A stretch of DNA of 64,000 nt from an uncultured Ruminococcus sp. GTDB lineage: Bacteria; Bacillota; Clostridia; Lachnospirales; Lachnospiraceae. Under the pieces are notes generated by a model. That model had not been told where the DNA came from and ran no database searches. It worked only from the letters and a program-made list of their open reading frames with translations. Location of the stretch: the NCBI GenBank assembly GCA_904418845.1, contig CAJFQC010000001.1:124001-188000 (forward strand), in the 5' to 3' direction. Both the position numbers and the translations under genes were made by a program. Shown here piece by piece: positions 47,941-61,800 of the stretch; the stretch's first letter is position 1, and each line of letters begins with the position of its first letter.

Positions 47941-49220
47941 GAAAAGATTGGAGATTTGAGACATTACAGCTGCACGCAGGACAGGAACAGCCGGATCCGG
48001 CCACGGACGCAAGGGCAGTTCCGATCTATCAGACAACCTCTTATGTATTTAAGAACTGCCAGCAGGCGGCAGACCGCTTCCGCCTGGCTGAAGCGGGAAA
48101 TATCTACGGAAGGCTGACCAATCCGACGCAGCAGATTTTCGAGGAGAGGATCGCGGCATTAGAAGGCGGAAGCGCGGCTCTTGCAGTGGCTTCCGGAGCG
48201 GCGGCCATTACATATACTTTCGAGAATCTGGCAAAGGCGGGAGACCATATCGTGTCCTCGAAATACATTTACGGCGGCAGCTATAACCTTCTTGAACATA
48301 CTCTGACCACACAGGGGATCACCACTACTTTTGTAGATCCGGAGGTGGAAGGAAGCTTTGAGGCTGCGATACAGGACAACACGAAAGCGATTTTTATCGA
48401 AAGTATCGGCAATCCAAATGCGAATCTCGCAGATATCCAGAAGATTGCGGATATCGCGCACAGTCACGGGATTGTGCTTGTCGTAGACAATACATTTGCC
48501 ACACCGTATCTGCTGAAGCCGTTTGAACACGGGGCGGATATTGTCGTACATTCCGCGACAAAATTTATCGGGGGACACGGAACAGCCCTGGGCGGGGTTA
48601 TCGTAGAGAGAGGCTCATTTGACTGGGAAGCGTCAGGGAAGTATCCCCAGATCACTGAGCCGGATCCAAGCTATCACGGAGTCCGCTTCCTGGAAGCGGC
48701 GGGAGCGGCTGCCTTTGTCACAAGGATTCGCGCTGTGCTCTTAAGAGATATGGGGGCGGCTGTGGCCCCGCTTCATGCTTTTCTGTTCCTTCAGGGACTT
48801 GAGACACTGTCCCTCCGGGTGGAGCGTCATGTGGAGAACACGCTGAAAGTCGTAGAGTTCTTAAAAAACCATCCGAAGATAGCGAGAGTGAATCATCCGT
48901 CCCTTGAGGACAGCCCGTACCATGACCTTTATAAGAAATATTTTCCGCGTGGAGGGGCGTCGATCTTCACGTTTGAGATCAATGGGACAGAGGAGGAAAC
49001 GAAACGTTTCATTGACCGCCTGGAGATATTCTCTCTGCTGGCGAATGTGGCGGATGTAAAGTCCCTCGTCATTCATCCGGCGAGCACGACGCATTCCCAG
49101 ATGACGGCGGAAGAGTTGGAGAATTCGGGCATACAGCCGAATTCCGTGAGAGTTTCTATCGGAACGGAGCATATTGAAGACATCCTGACAGATCTTGCGC
49201 AGGCTCTTGAGGAGGTATAG
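47937..49220 (+). CDS. metY: O-acetylhomoserine sulfhydrylase-type PLP enzyme
   Basis: Makes homocysteine (or methionine precursors) from O-acetylhomoserine and sulphide. The 427-residue Cys/Met-metabolism enzyme starts [20 protein letters not shown], contains [20 protein letters not shown], binds PLP at Lys209 ([15 protein letters not shown]), and ends with the [14 protein letters not shown] pattern. The MetY/O-acetylhomoserine aminocarboxypropyltransferase subgroup is indicated by length and the [18 protein letters not shown] segment. It overlaps the Rrf2 gene by 4 bp and precedes cysK by 2 bp. Confidence 0.93.
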
Positions 49221-49222
49221 AG

Positions 49223-50149
49223 ATGAGAATATATAAAAGTGTTACAGAACTTGTGGGAAAAACCCCGCTTCTGGAAGTCAGAAATATCGAAAAAGAAATG
49301 GGGTTAAAAGCGAGGATTCTTGTGAAGCTGGAATATTTTAACCCGGCGGGAAGTGTGAAAGACCGTGCGGCGCTGGGCATGATAGAAGAGGCAGAAAAAT
49401 CCGGCAGGCTCAGGGAAGGTGCAGTCATTATTGAACCGACCAGCGGGAATACTGGGATCGGTCTTGCGTCAATCGCGGCCGCGAAAGGCTATAAAGCTAT
49501 CTTTGTAATGCCGGAAACGATGAGTGTAGAGAGGAGGAAGCTTCTTCTCGGATACGGGGCGCAGATCGTCCTGACGGAAGGCGCGAAAGGGATGAAAGGC
49601 GCCATCGAAAAAGCAGCTGAGCTGGAGAAGGAGATGGATAATGCCATCGTGTTCGGACAGTTTGTAAACGAGGCGAATCCGGCCGCTCACTATCAGACGA
49701 CCGGACCGGAGATTTGGGAGGACACCGACGGTATGGTGGACATCTTCATCGCCGGGGTAGGAACCGGCGGAACGATCACGGGAAACGGCCGGTATCTGAA
49801 GGGGAAAAAGCCGTCCATAAAGGTGGTCGCAGTAGAGCCGGAAAAGTCTCCGGTCCTTTCAGGAGGACAGCCGGGCCCTCACGGCCTTCAGGGAATCGGG
49901 GCGGGATTTATTCCCGATATTCTGGATACAGCTATCTATGACAAGATCGCCCGGGTCACGGAAGATGAGGCCTATGCCGCGGCAAGGCTTCTGGCTGCAA
50001 AAGAGGGTATTCTGGTGGGAATTACCTCCGGCGCGGCGCTTCATACGGCCATCGAGGAGGCGAAGCAGCCGGGGAACGAAGGCCTGACGATTGTGACGGT
50101 GCTTCCGGATACAGGAGAAAGATATCTTTCTACCCCTCTTTTTGCGTAA
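49223..50149 (+). CDS. cysK: Cysteine synthase A
   Basis: Forms cysteine from O-acetylserine and sulphide, 308 residues. PLP Lys46 lies in [12 protein letters not shown], the substrate loop in [12 protein letters not shown], and the phosphate-binding glycine run in [15 protein letters not shown]. The C-terminal [12 protein letters not shown] is typical. Start 49223 is 2 bases after metY and follows GAGGAGGTA. Part of the Rrf2-metY-cysK operon. It may also be the CymR-type corepressor discussed for the regulator. Confidence 0.96.
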
Positions 50150-50227
50150 CAGTTCCACCATGAGGAAAGAGATATGCCGTTGCCGGCGGGAGCCTGCCTG
50201 TTTTAGTAAAGATGCTGAAAACAGCGA

Positions 50228-50256
50228 TTGAAAAATCGGTGAATGTGGTATATACT
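50228..50256 (+). promoter_or_regulatory. ptsH-ptsI promoter
   Basis: TTGAAA (50228-50233), 17 bp, TATACT (50251-50256), 38 bp before ptsH. Confidence 0.75.
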
Positions 50257-50294
50257 GATAGAAGAATCACGAACTCAAAGGAGGACATGTAGTT

Positions 50295-50552
50295 ATGAAA
50301 GAATTTAAATATGTGATCACAGACCCGGAAGGAATCCACGCAAGACCGGCGGGCATCCTTGTAAAGCAGGCAGCAGGATATCAGTCAGCTGTTAAGATTG
50401 CAAAGGGTGAGAAATCAGCCGATGCAAAGAGGATCTTCGGTGTCATGGGTCTCGGCGTTAAGACCGGCGAGGAAGTCACCATTACGGTTGAGGGAGCTGA
50501 CGAGGACACAGCGATCACAGAATTAGAGGCATTCTTCAAAGAGAATTTATAA
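50295..50552 (+). CDS. ptsH: Phosphocarrier HPr with Arg46 instead of Ser46
   Basis: Passes phosphate from Enzyme I to sugar-specific EIIA proteins. The 85-residue protein has the active His15 in GIHARPAG. In low-GC Firmicutes HPr kinase phosphorylates Ser46 (KSIMGVMSLG context) to drive CcpA repression; here that position is Arg46 (AKRIFGVMGLG), so this regulation cannot occur on this protein. S41 lies close by but not at the kinase site. GGAGG precedes the start. Operon with ptsI, 21 bp apart. Confidence 0.93.
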   Translation: MKEFKYVITDPEGIHARPAGILVKQAAGYQSAVKIAKGEKSADAKRIFGVMGLGVKTGEEVTITVEGADEDTAITELEAFFKENL

Positions 50553-50573
50553 AACAGGTAAGGAGATTAAGCC

Positions 50574-52196
50574 ATGATCACGATAAGCGGTAAAAGTGTA
50601 TTTGGCGGTGTGTCCATCGGAAAGATTATGTTTTATAAAAGAAATGACAAAGTGATCAAGAGGACACATGTAGATGATGTAGATATTGAGTGGAAGAGAT
50701 TCCAGGATGCAAAAGATACGGCGGTATCCCAGCTTAAAGGGCTGTATGACAAGGCGATCGCGGATGTTGGAGAAGCCAACGCGATGATCTTTGAGATTCA
50801 TCAGATGATGCTGGAGGATCTGGACTACCTTGAGTCCATTGAGAACATCATCCGCACTCAGGAGGTCAACGCAGAGTTTGCGGTGGCTACTACAGCGGAT
50901 AACTTCGCCCAGATGTTTGCGGCTATGGATGACGCTTACATGCAGGGACGCGCCGCGGACGTAAAAGACGTATCTGAGCGCGTGCTGGATGTCCTGTGCG
51001 GTGTGGACGGCGGAATGAAAGAGATGGATGAGCCATGTATCATTGCGGCGGATGATCTGGCTCCCAGTGAGACCGTACAGCTCGACAAGAGCAAAGTGCT
51101 TGGATTTGCCACGATGTATGGTTCATCCAACTCCCATACCGCGATCCTGGCGCGTACGATGAACATACCTGCGGTGATCGGCCTGGGAGAGGACCTTCTG
51201 GCAGAGTATGATGGGAAGATGGCTGTTATCGACGGATTTACCGGAAAACTTTATATCGAACCTGACGAAGAGACGATGAAAGTGATGCAGGAGAAGCGCC
51301 AGAAAGATCTGGAGCAGAAAGCGCTTTTAGAGCAGCTCAAGGGCAAGGAGAATGTCACAAAGAGCGGCCGGAAGATCAATGTGTACGCCAACATCGGAAA
51401 TGTGTCCGATGTTGGAGCAGTGCTCAAGAATGACGCGGGCGGAATTGGTTTATTCCGAAGCGAATTCCTGTATCTGGAGAATACGGATTTTCCGACAGAG
51501 GAGCAGCAGTTCTCTGTATACAAGCAGGTGGCAGAGAACATGGCGGGCAAGAAGGTCATCATCCGTACACTGGATATCGGCGCTGACAAGCAGGTGGATT
51601 ACTTTGGGCTGGATAAAGAGGAGAATCCGGCGCTCGGCTACCGTGCGATCCGTATCTGTCTGACCAGGCCGGAGATCTTCAAGACACAGCTTCGTGCTCT
51701 GTACCGCGCGGCAGTCTATGGAAATATTTCTATCATGTTCCCGATGATTATCTCTGTCAATGAGATCCGCAAGATCAAAGCGATCATCGCGGAGGTGAAG
51801 GAAGAACTGAAAAGCGAAGGAATCCCGTATAGAGATGAGGTTGAGCTCGGCGTTATGATCGAGACACCGGCTTCTGTCATGATCAGCCGTGACTTGGCAA
51901 AGGAAGTGGATTTCTTTAGTGTAGGTACAAATGACCTGACCCAGTATACTCTGGCGATCGATCGTCAGAATTCCAAGCTGGATCCGTTCTATGACCCGCA
52001 TCATCCGGCAGTGCTTGCCATGATCAGGATGGCAGCGGAAAATGCACATGCCGAGGGTAAATGGATCGGTATCTGCGGTGAGCTGGGAGCTGATCTCGAG
52101 CTGACGGAAGAGTTCCTGAAGATGGGACTGGACGAGCTGTCCGTGTCGCCGGCGATGGTGCTTCCACTTAGAAAGAGAATCAGAGACTGCGAATAA
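50574..52196 (+). CDS. ptsI: PTS Enzyme I
   Basis: Transfers phosphate from PEP to HPr. The 540-residue protein has the HPr-binding N-terminal domain, active His188 in SSNSHTAILART, the linker, and the PEP-binding barrel with GIGLFRSEFLYL, IRTLDIGADK, MFPMI, and VMIETPA, plus the late SVGTNDLTQY. All catalytic marks are present, so glycolysis-coupled sugar uptake should work. Length is slightly below B. subtilis EI (570). Followed by an unusual structured element. Confidence 0.96.
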   Translation: MITISGKSVFGGVSIGKIMFYKRNDKVIKRTHVDDVDIEWKRFQDAKDTAVSQLKGLYDKAIADVGEANAMIFEIHQMMLEDLDYLESIENIIRTQEVNAEFAVATTADNFAQMFAAMDDAYMQGRAADVKDVSERVLDVLCGVDGGMKEMDEPCIIAADDLAPSETVQLDKSKVLGFATMYGSSNSHTAILARTMNIPAVIGLGEDLLAEYDGKMAVIDGFTGKLYIEPDEETMKVMQEKRQKDLEQKALLEQLKGKENVTKSGRKINVYANIGNVSDVGAVLKNDAGGIGLFRSEFLYLENTDFPTEEQQFSVYKQVAENMAGKKVIIRTLDIGADKQVDYFGLDKEENPALGYRAIRICLTRPEIFKTQLRALYRAAVYGNISIMFPMIISVNEIRKIKAIIAEVKEELKSEGIPYRDEVELGVMIETPASVMISRDLAKEVDFFSVGTNDLTQYTLAIDRQNSKLDPFYDPHHPAVLAMIRMAAENAHAEGKWIGICGELGADLELTEEFLKMGLDELSVSPAMVLPLRKRIRDCE

Positions 52197-52226
52197 TACA
52201 CAGTCGGTCAGGATCAAATCTGCATG

Positions 52227-52331
52227 TTACAGGAAATAGAATATAATAGCAGTCGGAAGGCACATATCCGGGCAGATGAATCTGCACTGGGATAAGATGC
52301 CGGCCGGCTGCTTTGCTGTTTTACAGGAAAT
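52227..52331. repeat. 11-bp direct repeats flanking a structured element
   Basis: TTACAGGAAAT occurs at 52227-52237 and again at 52321-52331, bracketing the hairpin element at 52248-52312. This looks like a target-site duplication of a tiny insertion, or a chance repeat. Confidence 0.5.
52248..52322 (+). terminator. Long multi-stem hairpin after ptsI (terminator or small RNA)
   Basis: Nested pairing seen by hand: AGCAGTCGG (52248-52256) with CCGGCTGCT (52304-52312); GGCA (52259-52262) with TGCC (52298-52301); TATCC (52265-52269) with GGATA (52290-52294); GCAGA (52272-52276) with TCTGC (52281-52285) closing a TGAA loop. Together 23 pairs, followed by TTTGCTGTTTT. TATAAT at 52242-52247 directly precedes it, though without a clear -35. 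Confidence 0.55.
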
Positions 52332-52385
52332 TCCCTGGACTTACCTGCAAAATTAGCAGAGCAGAAATTTCCATCTATTTTCGTC

Positions 52386-52414
52386 TTGAAATAATCGAAC
52401 GTATGTGCTATACT
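52386..52414 (+). promoter_or_regulatory. Promoter of the DNA-repair operon
   Basis: TTGAAA (52386-52391), 17 bp, TATACT (52409-52414); transcription would start near 52421. Both LexA-type boxes overlap or abut it. Confidence 0.75.
52396..52408. promoter_or_regulatory. Imperfect LexA-type box in the promoter spacer
   Basis: CGAACGTATGTGC: GAAC-N4-GTGC, one base off the GAAC-N4-GTTC core of Firmicutes SOS boxes. Confidence 0.55.
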
Positions 52415-52421
52415 TTAAAAC

Positions 52422-52435
52422 AGAACGAATGTTCG
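52422..52435. promoter_or_regulatory. LexA (SOS) box at the transcription start
   Basis: AGAACGAATGTTCG contains a perfect GAAC-N4-GTTC core and fits 12 of 14 positions of the B. subtilis consensus CGAACRNRYGTTYC. It covers the predicted +1 site. Confidence 0.75.
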
Positions 52436-52456
52436 ATTTATGAAAGGGCGGAAAAG

Positions 52457-53779
52457 ATGAAGGCGAGAATTCAGGCGGGGATGTCGCTGTACGAAAAACT
52501 GAATATTTTATCTGATGCTGCGAAGTATGACGTCTCATGTACGTCCAGCGGCGTGGACAGACAGAATGACGGGACAGGTATGGGGAATTGCCGGAAGGCA
52601 GGGATATGCCACAGCTTTTCAGCGGACGGAAGATGTATCTCTCTTCTTAAAATATTGTTCACGAATGAGTGTATCTATGACTGTAAATACTGTATCAATC
52701 GTTCTTCCAACGATGTGGTGAGGGCGTCTTTTACTCCGGAGGAAGTATGCACGCTGACGATGGAATTCTACAGGAGAAATTATATTGAAGGTTTGTTTCT
52801 GAGCTCAGGGATACTTAAAAGCCCGGACTACACGATGGAGCTGATCTATGCCACACTCTGGAGGCTGCGGCATGAGTGCAGTTTTCAGGGCTATATCCAC
52901 GTGAAGGCGATACCGGGAGCAGACCAGCGGCTAATCCAGATGACAGGGTATCTGGCGGACAGGATGAGCGTGAATATGGAACTTCCCACGGCAGAGAGCC
53001 TTCGGCTTCTGGCGCCTCATAAATCAAGGAAGAATATCCTGACCCCCATGCGTTTTGTCCAGGAGAAGTCAAAGGAGAACAGGCAGGAGATCATGCTGTA
53101 CCGGAATGCACCCCGTTTTGTTCCGGCGGGACAGAGCACACAGATGATTATTGGCGCTACGCCGGAGACAGACTATCAGATTCTTCATGTGACAGAGTCA
53201 CTGTATAAGAAATTCGATCTAAAGCGTGTGTTTTTTTCTGCCTTTGTGCCTGTCAATGAGGATAAGGCGCTGCCCTCCATCCGCGATCAGGGCCCGCCGC
53301 TTTTGCGGGAACACCGCCTCTATCAGGCGGACTGGCTTCTGCGGTTCTACCACTTTGAGGCGGATGAACTGCTGGATGAGACAAACCCGAATTTTAATGT
53401 GTTCCTTGATCCCAAGTGCTGCTGGGCACTGAAGCATCTGGAGGTATTTCCTGTGGAGATCAACAGTGCGGACTACCGCACACTCCTGCGGGTGCCCGGA
53501 ATCGGATATAAGTCCGCAGGACGGATTGTGAAAGCACGCCGGCTGGGGGCTTTGAAGTTCGAGGATCTTAAGAAGATGGGCGTGGTGCTAAAGCGGGCGT
53601 TGTATTTTATCACTTGCAGCGGGAGAATGATGTATCCGGTCCGGCTGGAGGAAGATTATATTACGAGAAATCTTCTTAATACAAAGGAAAAGCTGCCGGA
53701 AGGTGCGGACGGAATGACATACCGTCAGATGTCGCTTTTTGATGATGTGAATTTCAACAGCAGTACAGCTGTGTTTTGA
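52457..53779 (+). CDS. Radical SAM protein with HhH domain, putative DNA repair or modification
   Basis: A 440-residue radical SAM protein of the family usually annotated as putative DNA modification/repair (TIGR03916 type). The SAM-cluster motif C-x3-C-x2-C is CIYDCKYC (near residues 72-79). N-terminal cysteines (CTSSG, GNCRKAGIC, GRC) could bind a second cluster. The C-terminal helix-hairpin-helix VPGIGYKSAGRIV (about 347-359) is a DNA-binding element. ATG 52457 has AAAGGGCGG upstream; the frame extends further but across the promoter. First gene of a LexA-boxed operon with the TIGR03915-type partner. The reaction is unknown. Confidence 0.87.
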   Translation: MKARIQAGMSLYEKLNILSDAAKYDVSCTSSGVDRQNDGTGMGNCRKAGICHSFSADGRCISLLKILFTNECIYDCKYCINRSSNDVVRASFTPEEVCTLTMEFYRRNYIEGLFLSSGILKSPDYTMELIYATLWRLRHECSFQGYIHVKAIPGADQRLIQMTGYLADRMSVNMELPTAESLRLLAPHKSRKNILTPMRFVQEKSKENRQEIMLYRNAPRFVPAGQSTQMIIGATPETDYQILHVTESLYKKFDLKRVFFSAFVPVNEDKALPSIRDQGPPLLREHRLYQADWLLRFYHFEADELLDETNPNFNVFLDPKCCWALKHLEVFPVEINSADYRTLLRVPGIGYKSAGRIVKARRLGALKFEDLKKMGVVLKRALYFITCSGRMMYPVRLEEDYITRNLLNTKEKLPEGADGMTYRQMSLFDDVNFNSSTAVF

Positions 53780-53794
53780 GAGGAGGAGCGGAGA

Positions 53795-54613
53795 GTGAAA
53801 CAGATCTATATATGCACGGATACCATGACCGGCCTTTTCGCCGCTCTCCATGACGCGTGGAAGGAGAACCGGGATAATGACGCGGGGATCGAAGTGAAGG
53901 GAAAGGTACAACAGCAGCTTTTCTGCGAGTACCGGACTGTGGAGGAGTGCGAAAAGAAAGCGGTCCGTCTGGAGAGGATGATCAGGCGCTATCTGGGACA
54001 CAGCGCATACCGGGATATCTATCATGCCCTGCTCTCAGACGATGGGGATAAAGGTACAGCGGTATTTAAGACCATGCAGGCATCGAGATGTATCCAGGAC
54101 AGCCATAAGATCATGGATCATCTCAGCCATCCAGAGGTGGCGAAGGTATTCGCCCTTAGCAGGAGTGTGGCAAATGAGGCACATATGTATGAAGAGTTCA
54201 TCCGCTTCCGTGAACTGGAAAATGGCATCCTCTTTTCGGAAATCACGCCGAAAGCGCAGATACTGACCTGCATTGCTGATCATTTTGCAGATCGTTTTCC
54301 CCTTGAGAACTGGATGATCTATGACAAGACTCACCGAGTGTTCCTCGTCCATAAAGCCCGGCAGGCATGGGGGCTTGTCTGGGGTGAGACGCTTGACAAT
54401 GAGGCGGCGGAGAAAGTGTCAGAGAAAGAGCTGGAATATGAACGGCTCTGGAGCGGTTTTTTTGAATCCATTTCTATCAAGGAACGTGAGAACCCCAGAT
54501 GCCAGCAGAATCATCTTCCGCTGCGGTACAGATCTGATATGACAGAGTTCCTGCAAAAGTCCGCATATGCGCATGAGCGAAACCTGGAAGCAGAAAGCTT
54601 GCATAAAGCCTGA
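53795..54613 (+). CDS. TIGR03915-type putative DNA metabolism protein
   Basis: A 272-residue protein opening with the diagnostic MKQIYICTDTMTGLFAALHDAW and containing RSVANEAHMYEEFIRFRELE. Families of this type are found beside the radical SAM protein and in some species are fused to a uracil-DNA-glycosylase-like domain; here that domain is absent. Function is not established. The start is GTG 53795, with GGAGGAGCGGAGA ahead of it. It follows the radical SAM gene by 15 bp. A DNA-lesion recognition or processing partner is the plausible role. Confidence 0.83.
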   Translation: MKQIYICTDTMTGLFAALHDAWKENRDNDAGIEVKGKVQQQLFCEYRTVEECEKKAVRLERMIRRYLGHSAYRDIYHALLSDDGDKGTAVFKTMQASRCIQDSHKIMDHLSHPEVAKVFALSRSVANEAHMYEEFIRFRELENGILFSEITPKAQILTCIADHFADRFPLENWMIYDKTHRVFLVHKARQAWGLVWGETLDNEAAEKVSEKELEYERLWSGFFESISIKERENPRCQQNHLPLRYRSDMTEFLQKSAYAHERNLEAESLHKA

Positions 54614-54662
54614 AATCAGATTATGATAGAAATATTAATATGTAAAAGGCGGAATCATACAG

Positions 54663-57038
54663 TTGTTTGAAGAAGAAAAAAGTACTGTTCGGATCTCTGT
54701 CCGTAATCTGGTGGAGTTTATCCTGCGGGAAGGAGATATAGACAGCAGCCGCTCAGGCGGCATGGACAAGGACGCCATGCTTATGGGCGGGCGTCTGCAC
54801 CGCAAGATCCAGCGCCGTATGGGACCCGAGTACCACGCGGAGGTAAGCCTTAAAACGCTGATTGACTGTGGAGAGTTCTGTATCCAGGTGGAAGGAAGGG
54901 CGGATGGTATCATCATAAAAGAAGATAAAACGGAACCTCGCGTAGTCATAGATGAGATCAAGGGTGTATTAAGAGAGCTCTCGCATATTGATCAGCCGAT
55001 GAATGTTCATCTGGCACAGGCAAAGTGCTACGCTTATATTTATGCGCGGCAGCAGGGGCTTGACCGGGTTGGTGTCCAGATGACTTACTGCCGTCTGGAC
55101 ACGGAAGAGATCCGGCGTTTTCAATTTGAGTATGGAAAAGAAGAACTTCAAGAGTGGTTTTATGATCTTGTCGGAAGTTATGAGAAATGGGCGAGGTTTC
55201 AGATTGAGTGGAAGCGGGAGAGAGACGCTTCCATACAGCGGATTGAATTTCCGTTTCCTTATCGAAAAGGCCAGAGGGATGTGGCGGCGGCTGTCTACCG
55301 GACGATCCTGCGCAGGAAAAAGCTCTTTATACAGGCGCCCACCGGAGTGGGGAAGACCATATCCACTGTGTTTCCTGCAGTAAAGGCTGTGGGGGAAGGA
55401 CTGGCAGAGAAGTTATTCTATCTGACGGCGAAGACTATCACCCGGACTGTGGCGGAGAATGCTTTTTCCACATTGAAGGAGAGGGGGCTTCGTATGAAGG
55501 TCATCACTCTGACGGCAAAGGAAAAGATCTGTTTCTGTGAAGAAGCGGTCTGCAGTCCGGATGTATGTCTTTATGCAAAAGGGCATTTTGACCGTGTTAA
55601 CGACGCGGTGTTTGACATGATTACCAAAGGGAATGAGATCGACAGGAAGGCCATTGAAGAACAGGCGCAGAAATACATGGTGTGCCCGTTTGAACTGTCT
55701 TTGGATATTTCTACATGGACAGATGCAGTAATCTGTGATTACAATTATGCGTTTGACCCGACGGCTCATCTAAAGCGTTTTTTTTCAGAGGGAGGGAGCA
55801 GAAATTATATTTTTCTTATTGATGAGGCGCACAATCTCGTAGAGCGGGCACGGGAGATGTATAGCGCCCGACTTTATAAAGAAGATATGATGGAGGTGAA
55901 GCGTCTCACAAAGAAGGATGCTCCTGGTCTGGCAAAAAAATTAGAAGAAGTGAACCGGCTTTTCCTTGCATTAAAGCGGGAATGTGAGGATTACATGATA
56001 TTGGACAGCGTTTCCCACATTGCGCTCAAGCTGATGAATCTGCTGGCAGAGATGGAGAAATTCCTTGAAGAGCCTGTTGAGGAAAAGAAAAGAGAGCAGG
56101 TGACGGATCTGTATTTCCAGGTGCGTTCTTTTGTAAATATCCATGATATCATGGACGAGAACTATGTGGTATACAGTGAATTGGAATCTGACGGCAGGTT
56201 TAAGGTGAGGCTGTTCTGTGTGAACCCGGCTCAGAATCTACAGTCCTTTCTGGAATATGGAGCGGGGACGATATTTTTTTCAGCGACCCTGCTTCCGATC
56301 CATTATTATAAAGAATTACTCTCAGTGGAGAAGGAGGATTATGCAATCTACGCAGAGACCCCGTTCCCGCCAGAGAACCGTCTTCTTCTCATGGGAAGGG
56401 ACGTAAGTACAAAATATACACTGCGCGGCGCCGGCATGTATGAACGTATCGCGCGATATATCATCATAGCTGCCAAAGTGAGAAAGGGAAATTATATGGC
56501 GTTTTTTCCTTCATATAAAGTGATGGAAGAGGTATACGGGTATTTTCTTTCTAATGCCAGGGGAATTGATGCTGTGGTTCAGTCTCAGAGTATGCGGGAG
56601 ACGGAGAGGGAAGAGTTTCTGGAAATGTTTGAAAAAGAAAGGGAGAACAGCCTGGTCGGTTTTTGTGTGATGGGCGGAATTTTTTCTGAGGGAATTGACC
56701 TGACAGAAGACAGGCTGATCGGGGCAGTTATTGTAGGAACAGGCCTGCCTCAGGTGTGCAGTGACAGAGAAATTGTAAAGCAGTATTTTGATGCAATGGG
56801 AATGAGAGGATTTGACTATGCGTACCTTTATCCCGGCATGAACAAAGTGCTGCAGTCCGCCGGGAGAGTGATCCGTACGGAGACAGACCGGGGAGTGATT
56901 CTTCTTCTGGATGACCGGTTTTTACAGAAACAGTACCGCGAGATATTCCCAAGAGAATGGGAAGGGTGCAGGATATGCAGCGCTGACACCCTCGCTGATC
57001 TGGCGGGAGAGTTCTGGGACAGATTATCTCCCGGGTAA
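54663..57038 (+). CDS. Rad3/DinG-like helicase fused to a Cas4-like nuclease domain
   Basis: A 791-residue protein. Residues 1-130 form a PD-(D/E)XK nuclease: EGRADG with Asp81, DEIK with Glu98 and Lys100, and QAKCYAYIYA. The XPD-like superfamily 2 helicase follows: Walker A APTGVGKT (about 226), cysteines CFCEEAVC, CLYA and VCPFEL that fit the XPD iron-sulphur cluster, DEAH (about 385), and motif VI QSAGRVIRTETDRGV. The start is TTG 54663, preceded by AAAAGGCGG at a 9-base spacing. Probably 5'-3' unwinding with nicking of lesion-bearing strands. Third gene of the SOS-type operon; convergent with a LysR gene 2 bp away. Confidence 0.88.
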   Translation: MFEEEKSTVRISVRNLVEFILREGDIDSSRSGGMDKDAMLMGGRLHRKIQRRMGPEYHAEVSLKTLIDCGEFCIQVEGRADGIIIKEDKTEPRVVIDEIKGVLRELSHIDQPMNVHLAQAKCYAYIYARQQGLDRVGVQMTYCRLDTEEIRRFQFEYGKEELQEWFYDLVGSYEKWARFQIEWKRERDASIQRIEFPFPYRKGQRDVAAAVYRTILRRKKLFIQAPTGVGKTISTVFPAVKAVGEGLAEKLFYLTAKTITRTVAENAFSTLKERGLRMKVITLTAKEKICFCEEAVCSPDVCLYAKGHFDRVNDAVFDMITKGNEIDRKAIEEQAQKYMVCPFELSLDISTWTDAVICDYNYAFDPTAHLKRFFSEGGSRNYIFLIDEAHNLVERAREMYSARLYKEDMMEVKRLTKKDAPGLAKKLEEVNRLFLALKRECEDYMILDSVSHIALKLMNLLAEMEKFLEEPVEEKKREQVTDLYFQVRSFVNIHDIMDENYVVYSELESDGRFKVRLFCVNPAQNLQSFLEYGAGTIFFSATLLPIHYYKELLSVEKEDYAIYAETPFPPENRLLLMGRDVSTKYTLRGAGMYERIARYIIIAAKVRKGNYMAFFPSYKVMEEVYGYFLSNARGIDAVVQSQSMRETEREEFLEMFEKERENSLVGFCVMGGIFSEGIDLTEDRLIGAVIVGTGLPQVCSDREIVKQYFDAMGMRGFDYAYLYPGMNKVLQSAGRVIRTETDRGVILLLDDRFLQKQYREIFPREWEGCRICSADTLADLAGEFWDRLSPG

Positions 57039-57040
57039 TA

Positions 57041-57931
57041 TTAACGATTATCTCCCTGGAAATAGTTCAGGAATTCCATGGCGGCACGGGGCAGAGGAAG
57101 ATGCTCATTGTAGGCGATGGCAAGCTCACGCTCAGGCAGTTCTTCTTTTGTCTTAAGGACAAAGATATCTTTTTCGGCATCTGGTATGCAGTAATCCGGT
57201 ACAAAAGCGATGCCAAGCCCGATTCGCGCAAGGTCAATGAGAAGGTCATTGCTTGTCAGCTCAATTTCAGGAACAAGGTCAAGCTGGTGCTGCTGGAATA
57301 CCTGATGAATAAATTCGTTTGTTGTGCTGTTCTTATCAAGCATCAGGATCGGATAGCGCAAAAGCCGGGAGAAAGAAAGCGTTTCCTCCTTAAGCTCAAG
57401 AAAAGGGGCTCCGGCGATAAATACATCTCGGAATTTTTTGATCCGTATAGTGGAAGATGCAGTGCCGAGATAATTGTTCGGATAGTTGACCACGATCAGA
57501 TCCACAAGCCCGTTCTGAAGGAGCTGGGCACATTTCATGGAAGTCTGGTTGACGACCTTGATGTGAGCGCCGGGGAAAGCTCTGTGAAAACGCTCCAGAT
57601 ACGGGATGAGAAAATACCGGCAGATCGTGTCGCTGGCTCCGATCCGGATCTGTCCTCCGGTGGAAGCAGCGTCGAGAAGCTGTGTCTCCCCTTTTCGGAT
57701 GAGGTTCATGGCAGGCTCGATATGGCGCATGAGGATCTCGCCCTCAGGGGTAAGCCGGACTTTTTTTGTACTGCGGATAAAAAGGGTCTGGTCCAGTTTC
57801 CGCTCCAGTGTCTTGATGGACTGGCTGACCGCGGACTGGGAGATGAAGAGGCGTTTGGACGCCTCGGAAAAATTCAGGGTAGAAGCGACATGGTAAAAAA
57901 CCTTGTATAATTCATAATTGATATCGATCAC
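57041..57931 (-). CDS. LysR-family regulator
   Basis: A 296-residue LysR regulator: MIDINYELYKVFYHVASTLN, FSEASKRLFISQSAVSQSIK and LDQTLFIRSTKKVRLTPEGE make up the DNA-binding domain. The effector domain begins GGQIRIGASDTICRYFLIPY. It resembles CysL/CbbR-type regulators in outline, but its target is not evident: upstream lies the divergent TIGR01906 membrane-protein gene across 78 bp, which could be the regulated gene. The DNA-binding domain differs clearly from those of the two LysR proteins at 17-19 kb. Confidence 0.9.
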   Translation of the reverse strand: MIDINYELYKVFYHVASTLNFSEASKRLFISQSAVSQSIKTLERKLDQTLFIRSTKKVRLTPEGEILMRHIEPAMNLIRKGETQLLDAASTGGQIRIGASDTICRYFLIPYLERFHRAFPGAHIKVVNQTSMKCAQLLQNGLVDLIVVNYPNNYLGTASSTIRIKKFRDVFIAGAPFLELKEETLSFSRLLRYPILMLDKNSTTNEFIHQVFQQHQLDLVPEIELTSNDLLIDLARIGLGIAFVPDYCIPDAEKDIFVLKTKEELPERELAIAYNEHLPLPRAAMEFLNYFQGDNR

Positions 57932-58009
57932 TATAAGACCTCCTAATAAATAATGATTGTATTATAAGCTATATAAAATAAAAACACAATACAGAGAAGA
58001 GGTACACCA

Positions 58010-58720
58010 ATGGAAAGTATGAAAAAATTACAATGGGCAGCGGCAATCATCTTTGCCTTTGCGGTCATTGCCGCGGCGCTGATCTCAAGCTTTGAGATCG
58101 CGATGTATTCGGATTTTGGTTTTTATGAGAAAGAATATGAGAAATATGATGTCCTGTCAGACCTGGATATGACCATGGAGGATGCCATGTATGTGACCAG
58201 GGAGATGATGTCATATCTGAGGGGAGAAAAAGAAGAGTTATCCGTGCTTACTACGATAGAGGGAAGAGAGCAGGATTTTTTTAATGAGCAGGATCGTTTT
58301 CACATGGGTGAGGTGCGGGAGCTCTTTATCGGAGGGCTGAACATCAGGACCGGAGCGTGTGTGGCAGGAGCGCTGTGCCTGATCTTTCTGCTTGTATCCC
58401 GCGCAGATATAAAAAGACTTCTTTCAAAATCTTATTGGATAGCCCTGGGGATATCGGCTGGTGCCGTGGCGGTTATCGGTATTGCCTCGTTCGTGGATTT
58501 CAACGCGGTGTTTGTGCGCTTTCATCATATCTTTTTTGACAATGATCTGTGGATATTTGATCCGGCAGAAGATTACATGATCCGCATGCTGCCGGAAGGA
58601 CTGTTCTATGATTTTGTCATGAGGATCGGCGGACTCTTTGTGGGGATGCTGGCGGTGCTGTTCCTGCTGAGTATTTTGCCGGCAGCGGTCTCAAAAATAC
58701 GGAAAAAGCAATGTGATTAG
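58010..58720 (+). CDS. TIGR01906/DUF1461 membrane protein (Lit-like)
   Basis: A 236-residue membrane protein with four hydrophobic segments (about 8-28, 114-130, 143-162, 205-226). The external part has FHMGEVRELF (His98) and RFHHIFFDNDLWIF (His172, His173). These fit the TIGR01906/DUF1461 family, which includes Lit, the lipoprotein intramolecular transacylase of Enterococcus and Bacillus that makes lyso-form lipoproteins. I assign the family from motif layout; activity is inferred. It would act on the several lipoproteins encoded in this window. AGAGG precedes ATG 58010; ATG 58019 is possible. Confidence 0.7.
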   Translation: MESMKKLQWAAAIIFAFAVIAAALISSFEIAMYSDFGFYEKEYEKYDVLSDLDMTMEDAMYVTREMMSYLRGEKEELSVLTTIEGREQDFFNEQDRFHMGEVRELFIGGLNIRTGACVAGALCLIFLLVSRADIKRLLSKSYWIALGISAGAVAVIGIASFVDFNAVFVRFHHIFFDNDLWIFDPAEDYMIRMLPEGLFYDFVMRIGGLFVGMLAVLFLLSILPAAVSKIRKKQCD

Positions 58721-58752
58721 CAATGCTTATCATAAGCCTTTAATTATATTAA

Positions 58753-58782
58753 TTGTACTAATGAAGTGAACTGTGGTACGAT
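58753..58782 (+). promoter_or_regulatory. purL promoter
   Basis: TTGTAC (58753-58758), 18 bp, TACGAT (58777-58782), with TGG forming an extended -10. Confidence 0.5.
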
Positions 58783-58835
58783 ACAGACAGATAGTTTCAG
58801 TATGATACGTATGTAAGATGTAAAGGAGACTGTAT

Positions 58836-61800
58836 ATGAGTAGTGTAAGACGAGTTTTTGTAGAGAAAAAGCCGGCATTTGCAGTGGCAGCCAAGGAACT
58901 CCGCCATGAGATACGCCATTATCTCGGCATTCAGGACGTGACGGGAGTGCGTGTGCTGATCAGATATGACGTGGAAAATATTTCCGATGAGACATTCGAG
59001 AAGGCATGCAGCGGAGTGTTCGCTGAGCCGCCGGTGGATATCCTGTATAAAGAGGAATTCGCGGTGAACGAGGGAGACCGCAGCTTTTCCGTGGAATATC
59101 TTCCGGGCCAGTTTGATCAGAGGGCAGACTCTGCCGAGCAGTGTATTCGTTTTATCAAGGAGGACGAGACTCCGGTGATCCGCACGGCGACAACATATGT
59201 GATCGAAGGAGGAATTTCTGATGAAGAACTTTCGGAGGTCCGTAACCACTGCATCAATCCGGTGGATTCCAGAGAAGCGCAGGCAGAGAAGCCGGATACA
59301 CTTGTCACGGTATTTGATGAGCCGGAGGATATCAAAGTATTCGACGGATTCTGCCAGATGCCGGAGACCGAATTAAAAGAGCTTTATGACTCTCTTGGAC
59401 TTGCCATGACTTTTAAGGATTTCCTTCACATCCAGAATTATTATAAAGGTGAGGAACACAGAGATCCATCTATGACAGAGATTCGTGTTCTTGACACATA
59501 CTGGTCCGACCACTGCCGCCACACGACGTTTTCCACAGAGCTTACGGACGTGGTGTTTGATGACGGCGACTACAGGAAACCGATCGAAGATACTTATAAG
59601 CAGTATTTGAAAGATCACAATGAGATATTTGCCGGGCGAGAGGATAAGTTTGTCTGCCTGATGGACCTTGCCCTCATGGCAATGCGCAGACTGAAAAGGG
59701 AAGGAAAGCTCGAAGATCAGGAGCAGTCCGATGAGATCAACGCCTGCAGCATTGTTGTGCCCATCAAAGTGGACGGTGTGGAGGAAGAGTGGCTCATCAA
59801 CTTTAAGAACGAGACTCATAACCATCCGACAGAGATTGAACCTTTCGGAGGAGCGGCGACCTGTCTCGGCGGTGCTATCCGTGACCCGCTTTCAGGACGG
59901 ACCTATGTATATCAGGCAATGCGTGTGACCGGAGCGGCAGATCCTACTGTATCTGTGCAGGATACACTGAAAGGAAAGCTGCCCCAGAAGAAGCTTGTCC
60001 GGGGCGCGGCGCACGGATACAGCTCTTATGGAAACCAGATCGGTCTTGCGACGGGACTTGTAAAAGAAATCTACCATCCAAACTATGTGGCGAAACGTAT
60101 GGAGATCGGCGCAGTGCTGGGCGCGGCTCCAAGACGCGCGGTGATCCGTGAGACGTCGGATCCGGGAGATATCATCATCCTGCTGGGAGGACGGACAGGA
60201 CGCGACGGCTGCGGCGGCGCCACAGGTTCTTCAAAGGTACATACAGAAGAATCTATCGAGACGTGCGGCGCAGAGGTCCAGAAAGGAAATCCGCCCACAG
60301 AGCGTAAGATCCAGAGGCTGTTCCGCCGGGAGGAAGTGAGCAGGCTGATCAAAAAGTGTAATGATTTCGGCGCGGGCGGTGTGTCAGTGGCCATCGGTGA
60401 GCTGGCAGACGGACTGAGGGTTGAGCTTGATAAAGTTCCGAAGAAATACGCGGGACTGGACGGTACGGAAATTGCCATTTCTGAATCCCAGGAGCGTATG
60501 GCTGTGGTAGTCGACCCGAAGGATGCGGCAGAGTTCATGTCCTACGCAAAGGAGGAAAACCTTGAGGCGACAGAGGTTGCGGTTGTGACAGAAGAGCCGA
60601 GGCTGGTTCTCGTATGGAGAGGAAAAGAGATCGTGAATCTCTCACGTGCTTTTCTTGACACGAATGGGGCCCATCAAGAGACATCTGTTGAGGTGGAGAT
60701 GCCAAAACGTGAGGACAGCCTGTTTAAGCGCAGAGAGATCGGCGATGTGAAAACAGCATGGCTTAATGTGCTGAGTGATCTGAATGTATGCTCGCAGAAG
60801 GGACTCGTAGAGATGTTCGACGGTTCTATTGGAGCAGGTTCTGTGTTCATGCCGCACGGCGGTAAATATCAGATGACAGAGACGCAGACAATGGTGGCAA
60901 AGGTGCCGGTCCTCACAGGAAAGACAGACAGTGTATCCATGATGAGCTACGGCTTTGATCCCTATCTGTCAAGCTGGAGCCCGTATCACGGGGCGGTTTA
61001 CGCGGTTGTGGAGTCTGTGGCAAAGATCGTTGCCGCGGGCGGCGACTATAAAAAGATCCGCTTTACATTCCAGGAGTACTTCCGCAGGATGAGTGAAGAT
61101 CCGAAGAGATGGAGCCAGCCTTTCGCGGCGCTTCTCGGCGCGTACGCGGCGCAGATCGGATTCGGACTGCCGTCCATCGGCGGAAAAGACAGTATGTCAG
61201 GAACTTTCCGGGATATCGATGTTCCCCCGACGCTTGTGTCCTTTGCGGTTGATATGGCCACAGAGAAAGACATCATCACGCCGGAACTTAAAAAAGCCGG
61301 AAACAAACTGGTATGGCTGCGCATTGAGAAAGACGGATACGACCTTCCGGTATACGGTCAGATCATGGAACAGTACGGGAAGTTCACAGAGGATATCCGG
61401 GCGGGAAGGATTGTGTCTGCATATGCTCTTGACCGCCACGGCGTGATCGCCGCTGTGAGCAAGATGGCTTTTGGCAATAAGATGGGCGTAAAGATCGAGC
61501 ACAATATAGATCCGAGAGATATGTTCGCTCCGGCATTCGGCGATATCATCGCTGAGGTAGAGGACGGACAGGTCGGAAATTTACAGATAAGCTACACAGT
61601 GATCGGTGAAGTGGCAGACAGAGATACATTTGAATATAGCGGTGCAAAGATCGGCATGGAAGAAGCGCTTGGCGCATGGACGGGCACTCTGGAGAAAGTT
61701 TTTGCCACAAAGTCAGCGGAGAGCTCAGACCAGCGGGTGGAGGAGAAGCTTTATGATGCTTCTGACATCCATGTCTGCAGTCACAAGATCGCTCAGCCTA

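Follow-up and report, generated by a model that had tools for sequence, protein, structure and literature searches.

A putative SOS-controlled radical SAM and DUF4130 gene pair with a predicted sliding-clamp motif in Lachnospiraceae

Spore photoproduct lyase is, to our knowledge, the only radical S-adenosylmethionine (SAM) enzyme known to reverse DNA damage directly. Two further families, TIGR03916 and TIGR03915, carry one-line names in NCBIfam, a putative DNA modification/repair radical SAM protein and a TIGR03915 family putative DNA repair protein; we take COG4277 to be the same family as TIGR03916. A passage of PMC8565304 predicts SOS control of the COG1573-COG4277 uracil-DNA-glycosylase operon in Bacteroidetes, and Verrucomicrobia and Alphaproteobacteria are cited there for SOS control of this pair as well. 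SOS control as such is therefore not new, being in print for other phyla. The operon described here lies in a stretch of 64,000 nucleotides (the window; contig CAJFQC010000001.1, positions 124,001 to 188,000 of the forward strand) from an uncultured Ruminococcus sp. It encodes a TIGR03916 radical SAM protein (rSAM), a TIGR03915/DUF4130 protein (gene 2) and a nuclease-helicase, and the addition of the present work is a form without UdgX in a Lachnospiraceae-type family. The reading preferred here, with a probability of about one half, is that the first two genes are a core module consisting of an SOS-induced radical enzyme, recruited by the sliding clamp, and its partner.

Judging from its operators, the rSAM gene is very likely under SOS control. 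In the same family, 118 of 200 genera have a TIGR03916 match, which exceeds the cut-off in 112; four matches confined to the HhH range were excluded, which leaves 114 rSAM genera. The locus set is comprised of the window and 100 of the 108 listed full-length rSAM places, the eight lowest-scoring being omitted, and the operators were counted in 100 upstream stretches of 350 bp, as one of the 101 loci is too short upstream. A GAAC-N4-GTTC box with at most one mismatch precedes the rSAM gene in all 100 stretches (100 genera of one family). It is perfect in 54 of them, and 75 contain two or more boxes. Eleven other arrangements of the half-site letters give 3-17 of the 100 stretches with 0-2 perfect sites, and dinucleotide shuffles (30 sets) give a mean of 9.5 stretches with a maximum of 18. 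The box is found inside the rSAM gene in 6 of 100 loci and inside gene 2 in 9 of up to 99. The highest controls are palindromes with a spacer of 8 (31/100, 1 perfect) and of 0 (20/100, 2 perfect), likewise with at most one mismatch. An earlier, sequence-only reading of this DNA had proposed LexA control and had named the absence of boxes before homologous operons as a result that would overturn it. Every one of the 100 stretches carries a box, and the proposal is supported both by this conservation and by the operators of other lineages described below.

A second set was taken from at least 590 named rSAM loci: the 80 nearest, of which 72 are not identical to members of the first set. The box is present in 64 of the 71 loci that have at least 250 bp upstream. 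Judged by rSAM, the named relatives nearest to the genome of the window are Clostridium sp. Marseille-P3244 and Mediterraneibacter faecavium. Lachnospiraceae or one of its genera appears in the titles of most of the 80 loci, and the genome probably belongs to that family. The genome that contains the window (2.4 Mb, 51 contigs) has one lexA gene. Three one-mismatch CGAACN4GTTCG sites lie 82-155 bp before the lexA match (G000:C4:99636-99709, 74 bp), and the recA match has the only zero-mismatch site of the genome about 40 bp upstream, which indicates that GAAC-N4-GTTC is the motif expected for the LexA of the host. The conserved operator at the rSAM promoter is thus of the host's own type. Genome-wide, the one-mismatch pattern occurs 33 times, as compared with 76 for the reversed pattern; there is no enrichment, so single one-mismatch matches elsewhere mean little.

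In the window, the promoter, the near-match and the perfect LexA box and the three closely spaced genes of the sequence-only reading were all recovered where it had placed them (Table 1). The promoter agrees with the consensus at 10 of 12 positions. The region 52150-57300 contains 11 promoter-like sites (shuffles: 6.2), and this one is in the top three. The positions of the two boxes would suit repression. The single mismatch of box 1 lies in the TG that extends the -10 element, and the GTGCTAT end of this box is identical in loci L221, L222 and L239. On its own the perfect site means no more than chance, because one is expected per 64 kb: GAACNNNNGTTC occurs once in the window and 0.80 times per shuffle. 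Chance is ruled out by its promoter position beside a second box and by the conservation. In an alignment with three relatives, picked for sharing the box layout, the conserved blocks are the -35 element, both boxes and the -10 element; the CTTG of the -35 element, box 1 and TAT are invariant, and the flanking sequence varies.

Table 1. Features of the operon in window coordinates
Feature	Position	Strand	Remarks
Sigma-A type promoter TTGAAA-17-TATACT	52386..52414	+	-35 at 52386-52391, -10 at 52409-52414, TG before -10
LexA box 1, GAACGTATGTGC	52397..52408	+	one mismatch; in the -35/-10 spacer
LexA box 2, GAACGAATGTTC	52423..52434	+	perfect; just past -10, near the expected transcription start
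Radical SAM protein TIGR03916 (rSAM)	52457..53779	+	CX3CX2C, three further Cys, C-terminal HhH, disordered tail
Codons of the predicted clamp-binding motif QMSLF	53726..53740	+	rSAM residues 424-428, counted from ATG
TIGR03915/DUF4130 protein (gene 2), GTG start	53795..54613	+	TIGR03915 and DUF4130 models; 15 bp after the rSAM gene
EndoDinG, TTG start	54663..57038	+	N-terminal PD-(D/E)XK nuclease and XPD/DinG helicase; 49 bp after gene 2

Operators of other kinds precede the gene in other phyla. A plasmid collection holds 158 records with rSAM, of which 20 were taken at even steps, 12 of these were retrieved and 11, all but L220, were analysed. Perfect GAAC-N7-GAAC is found in 8/8 alphaproteobacterial plasmid loci (five of them from Rhodobacterales), 15-94 bp before the start used, and perfect CTGT-N8-ACAG before the rSAM gene of the one betaproteobacterial locus. 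Both are raw matches, and the start positions in Ensifer and Novosphingobium, where rSAM is unannotated, are a guess. The two patterns are presumably the LexA motifs of Alphaproteobacteria and Betaproteobacteria, respectively. If this assignment holds, the operator would have switched together with LexA while the control was kept, which outweighs conservation within one family. No paper combining radical SAM, UdgX and DNA repair was found in the literature searched.

The second element of the preferred reading is a predicted clamp-binding motif in the tail of the rSAM protein. The last 30 residues, most of them modelled with a confidence score (pLDDT) below 50, contain QMSLF, and this motif in a flexible segment is of the QL[S/D]LF type, the sliding-clamp consensus given in a passage of PMC3716654. 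The strict form Q[LM][SD]LF is present in the last 60 residues in 81 of the 101 loci, as compared with 0.02 for shuffled tails and 0 elsewhere in the protein. A tolerant form, which was drawn up once the misses of the strict form had been inspected, is found in 99 of 101 (shuffled tails 4.7, elsewhere in the protein 5). Eight proteobacterial tails, a count that excludes Ensifer, carry a motif of the form QLxL[FIL] (QLALF, QLSLF, QLALI, QLSLL, QLELF, QLTLF or QLSLI) in terminal or nearly terminal position, and the Bacteroides protein ends in QLLLDFGE. No earlier report of a clamp motif in the TIGR03916 family was found in the literature searched. Confidence that the tail recruits rSAM to the clamp, as these patterns suggest, is moderate. 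A motif of the kind carried by translesion polymerases would also suit an accessory of SOS mutagenesis or tolerance, with the pair acting together with such a polymerase on the clamp and the lesion not being removed, and a figure legend of PMC3765255 calls DUF4130 a predicted mutagenesis-related enzyme. Against such a role, no cluster of neighbours other than gene 2 and EndoDinG occurs in more than 15 of the 101 loci (the clusters were compared without a family scan, and single loci may include a polymerase), and we consider it rather unlikely.

The radical enzyme itself was recognized by family models, as was the DNA-binding HhH that the sequence-only reading had assigned to it: TIGR03916 scores 694.8 bits (cut-off 343.5) and the HhH model PF12836 scores 27.7 (cut-off 27). 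The CX3CX2C motif is C72/C76/C79 and is present in 55 of 55 aligned rows. Three further cysteines, C28, C51 and C60, are equally invariant in the 55 rows and are shared by the window, Phaeobacter, Bacteroides and Caballeronia; a pattern of fixed spacing finds the arrangement in 94 of the 101 loci. They may hold a second cluster. The AlphaFold2 model (pLDDT 80.9) resembles HydE, human lipoyl synthase (LIAS), MqnE and biotin synthase (BioB) over about 210-255 columns. These leading matches, together with extra cysteines that could bind a second cluster, would also be expected of an enzyme that, in the manner of lipoyl or biotin synthase, inserts sulfur or consumes a cluster, and whose product would be a modified base and not a repaired one. 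Damaged DNA is suggested instead by the HhH, the clamp motif and the LexA control seen in several lineages, and the stretch with the cysteines is modelled at low confidence; synthesis of a modified base is, in our judgement, decidedly unlikely. Close kinship with spore photoproduct lyase, the precedent to which the sequence-only reading had pointed, was not seen, either in the 50 fold matches listed for the model or with the SplB model TIGR04070, which gives no match to the protein at E 0.01 or better.

The partner is as constant as the operator. Gene 2 stands next after rSAM in 100 of the 101 loci, and in the exception the contig ends 14 bp past the rSAM frame. The window protein scores 244.8 bits with TIGR03915 (cut-off 112.25) and 170.4 with DUF4130 (cut-off 27), its structure model is confident (pLDDT 93.7), and E128, F138, F164, R167, D177, R231 and N233 are invariant in an alignment of 72 sequences. 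As had been stated earlier, the family is elsewhere fused to a uracil-DNA-glycosylase-like domain: in Phaeobacter and Caballeronia the TIGR03915 domain carries a C-terminal UdgX (TIGR03914); in Bacteroides it is unfused. No uracil-DNA glycosylase domain was found in gene 2, none of the 200 family genomes has a UdgX match above the cut-off (12 have weaker ones), and the genome of the window has one gene of the uracil-DNA glycosylase superfamily. Handling of uracil is therefore unlikely to be the common step, since UdgX, a uracil-DNA-binding domain, is on the proteobacterial partner and absent in this family. In Foldseek searches with gene 2, DHH/RecJ-type proteins lead among solved and viral structures, with probabilities up to 1.00, TM-scores of about 0.3 and identities of about 7-13% in the leading matches. 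There is no Pfam DHH match at E 0.1, and a profile comparison with DHH gave 0.5%, no better than unrelated controls, in what is a weak test with partly faulty templates. DHH kinship is treated here as a lead from the fold, which none of the sequence methods supports.

Relatives of DUF4130 also occur in eleven records of a phage collection: eight human faecal contigs, Bacteroides phage BKO1-TP1 and two 240-kb Acinetobacter records, which may be host sequence. The DUF4130 protein at L237:7478-8743 has a long repetitive insert ahead of its C-terminal part.

The third gene fits the EndoDinG group, as far as this group is described in the section of PMC11981726 that names it. The nuclease half gets no Pfam call, but all 22 aligned homologs keep its motif residues H46, E60, D81, E98 and K100 unchanged. 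The helicase half has GKT (230-232), DEAH (387-390) and the four cysteines C290, C297, C302 and C341 of the FeS motif; it matches Helicase_C_2 and DEAD_2 and stays below the cut-off of the rad3 model (141.9 vs 246.95). A full-length homolog has been solved (PDB 9kqh, E 9.7e-159, aligned over residues 6-767). The sequence-only reading was right in joining a PD-(D/E)XK nuclease to an XPD-like helicase; the gene, which it had counted among uncharacterised ones, fits a group already published as EndoDinG.

EndoDinG is found in 170 of the 200 genomes, as compared with 114 for rSAM, and lies within 8 kb of rSAM in 40 of 101 loci, once on the opposite strand; 150 EndoDinG places were listed, and a few loci end too early downstream for adjacency to be judged. 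Boxes were also counted before EndoDinG copies separate from rSAM (the best-scoring 20 of 60 eligible) and in genomes that have no rSAM (20 of 48), two of the 40 being dropped because of short sequence. One-mismatch boxes occur in 1 of 18 separate copies (control palindromes up to 3) and in 5 of 20 copies from genomes without rSAM (up to 4). None of the 38 copies has a perfect box, and SOS control of EndoDinG by itself is not supported. By raw count it occurs in 107 of 114 genomes with rSAM and in 63 of 86 without; on 11 independent pairs, co-occurrence was not seen (1.6 the same way, 0.2 the opposite). The patchy adjacency, the lack of boxes and the lack of pairwise co-occurrence indicate that EndoDinG is a passenger or an optional helper and not part of the core.

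These counts bear on a dedicated three-step pathway, the scheme to which the sequence-only reading had come closest, in which rSAM and the DUF4130 protein would convert a lesion, EndoDinG would unwind and cut the product, and all three would be induced together. The window, where EndoDinG closely follows gene 2 on the same strand, is what such a pathway would produce, and adjacency in 40 of 101 loci is probably above the expectation for unlinked genes and is clustered on the rSAM tree (13 changes vs 31.6 for shuffled labels). Only 13 of the 39 same-strand neighbours, however, are separated from gene 2 by less than 120 bp, and neither the separate copies nor the independent pairs behave as the pathway predicts. 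A three-step pathway is therefore unlikely, and the two-gene core remains the preferred reading.

Some loci have other genes between gene 2 and EndoDinG. In L048, L055, L073 and L105 there is a reading frame of 91-115 amino acids; tblastn with the HPr of the window found no HPr in this place, and the 91-residue frame of L105 scores 22.5 with the Pfam HPr model (cut-off 23), a borderline value that would make it possibly HPr-like. L058, L062 and L084, which are close relatives, have four intervening genes, by eye NfeD-like, stomatin-like, a LytTR-type response regulator and a histidine kinase. In the window, the operon is preceded by ptsH (Pfam-scanned) and ptsI (by eye). On its other side a LysR-type regulator, convergent with it, lies from 57041, and the transcript is therefore likely to end near 57038; no terminator was picked up at this place by a simple scan. 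Shortly downstream, at 58010-58720, there is a lit gene (lipoprotein intramolecular transacylase; Pfam Lit, 148 bits). The PADLOC model typeIV_DinG matches the helicase part of EndoDinG, and no cas genes were recognized in 49000-60500, where the neighbours were inspected by eye and three of them (ptsH, the LysR regulator and lit) Pfam-scanned, with no PADLOC scan of the neighbours.

Within the family, rSAM tracks sporulation, with modest support from one marker. Of the 135 genomes that have a spoIVA match, 101 carry the gene, as do 13 of the 65 that have none; conversely, spoIVA is found in 101 of 114 rSAM genomes and in 34 of 86 that lack rSAM. An rpoB tree was made of 60 genomes (30 with and 30 without rSAM; that of the window and 59 random ones from 131 places), incomplete or contaminated genomes being mostly excluded. 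On 11 independent pairs differing in rSAM, spoIVA differs in the same direction in 5.8 and in the opposite direction in 0.1 (median p 0.031, range 0.008-0.375). Genome size was not supported as the cause of the link, the pairs splitting 3.1 vs 2.6, and spoIVA itself leans with genome size (4.6 vs 1.1, median p 0.375). The gene is also carried by Phaeobacter, Agrobacterium and Bacteroides, which form no spores, and a role in spores is therefore no general rule. The importance in spores suggested earlier thus stands as an association within the family and fails as a rule for all carriers.

This association, which does not extend to genome size, is also an argument for regarding rSAM as an analogue of spore photoproduct lyase that reverses a spore UV lesion on germination. 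The genome of the window has no TIGR04070 match, and a published paper terms the radical SAM enzymes associated with DUF4130 SplB-like. Carriers without spores, the failure of the SplB model with the rSAM protein and a promoter of the sigma-A type with LexA boxes all speak against such an analogue, which is improbable and the least probable of the alternatives considered.

The preferred reading, an SOS-induced radical enzyme with one constant partner, would work as follows. RecA-driven cleavage of LexA would free the promoter, a step for which the operators argue strongly. The C-terminal tail would bring rSAM to damaged or stalled replication sites, and its HhH, from the motifs and what is known of the family, would hold the DNA, a step held with moderate confidence. 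A radical derived from SAM would then act on a damaged nucleotide or adduct. The DUF4130 protein would bind or process the same DNA, as its constant association suggests, and EndoDinG would be an optional neighbour that shares the SOS transcript here. Several points weigh against this scheme. The box is missing in 7 of the 71 further named loci, and five of these seven bear titles other than Lachnospiraceae or Roseburia (the seven titles are Halanaerobiales, twice, Clostridiaceae, Merdimmobilis, Clostridia, Roseburia and Lachnospiraceae). The Bacteroides rSAM has upstream no perfect firmicute, alphaproteobacterial or betaproteobacterial LexA motif and neither of two Bacteroidetes motifs; a lone one-mismatch GGA-N5-TCC of the Bacteroidetes type lies far upstream at -224. 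That of Gemmatirosa has no perfect upstream match to the two motifs tried, the alphaproteobacterial and the betaproteobacterial, and its reading frame ends without the tail motif. A short tail motif need not bind the clamp, the fold match of gene 2 is weak, and a published paper ties DUF4130 to uracil glycosylases and a possible thymine modification. A more specific proposal, that a clamp-docked radical SAM enzyme repairs or reverses a replication-blocking lesion without a glycosylase, is switched by LexA in distant phyla and has been retained together with sporulation in Lachnospiraceae-type bacteria, can be put forward only tentatively.

Compared with the NCBIfam pair TIGR03916/TIGR03915, both window proteins reach roughly double the curated cut-offs, and their genes stand side by side; the clamp motif, the extra cysteines and the sporulation link are present here and are not in the one-line descriptions of these families. 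The COG1573-COG4277 operon, as described in PMC8565304, is alike in that LexA is predicted to control an operon containing COG4277, and differs in having a uracil-DNA glycosylase partner, a domain that gene 2 lacks. The loci of Phaeobacter and Caballeronia share the rSAM gene directly upstream, a LexA-type box and the TIGR03915 domain; there this domain is fused to UdgX, whereas the window protein gives no match to the UdgX model. An operon without a uracil-binding partner would separate the radical step from uracil handling in a simple two-gene system, which offers a defined tail motif and an operator to mutate. EndoDinG of PMC11981726 and 9kqh have the PD-(D/E)XK residues, the CCCC cluster motif and the helicase motifs in common with the third protein, which here is part of an SOS operon, a context that the section on EndoDinG in that paper does not mention. 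SplB is alike in belonging to the radical SAM superfamily and in its DNA repair context; the window rSAM differs in giving no match to its model and in having HydE, LIAS and BioB as the leading folds among the 50 matches listed. A pair of rSAM and partner that appears to be switched by damage, here and in distant bacteria, makes an unexplained route of DNA repair testable. If the preferred reading is true, rSAM would be a second radical SAM repair enzyme beside SplB, one that the clamp recruits and the SOS response controls in several phyla, and would provide a general repair route.

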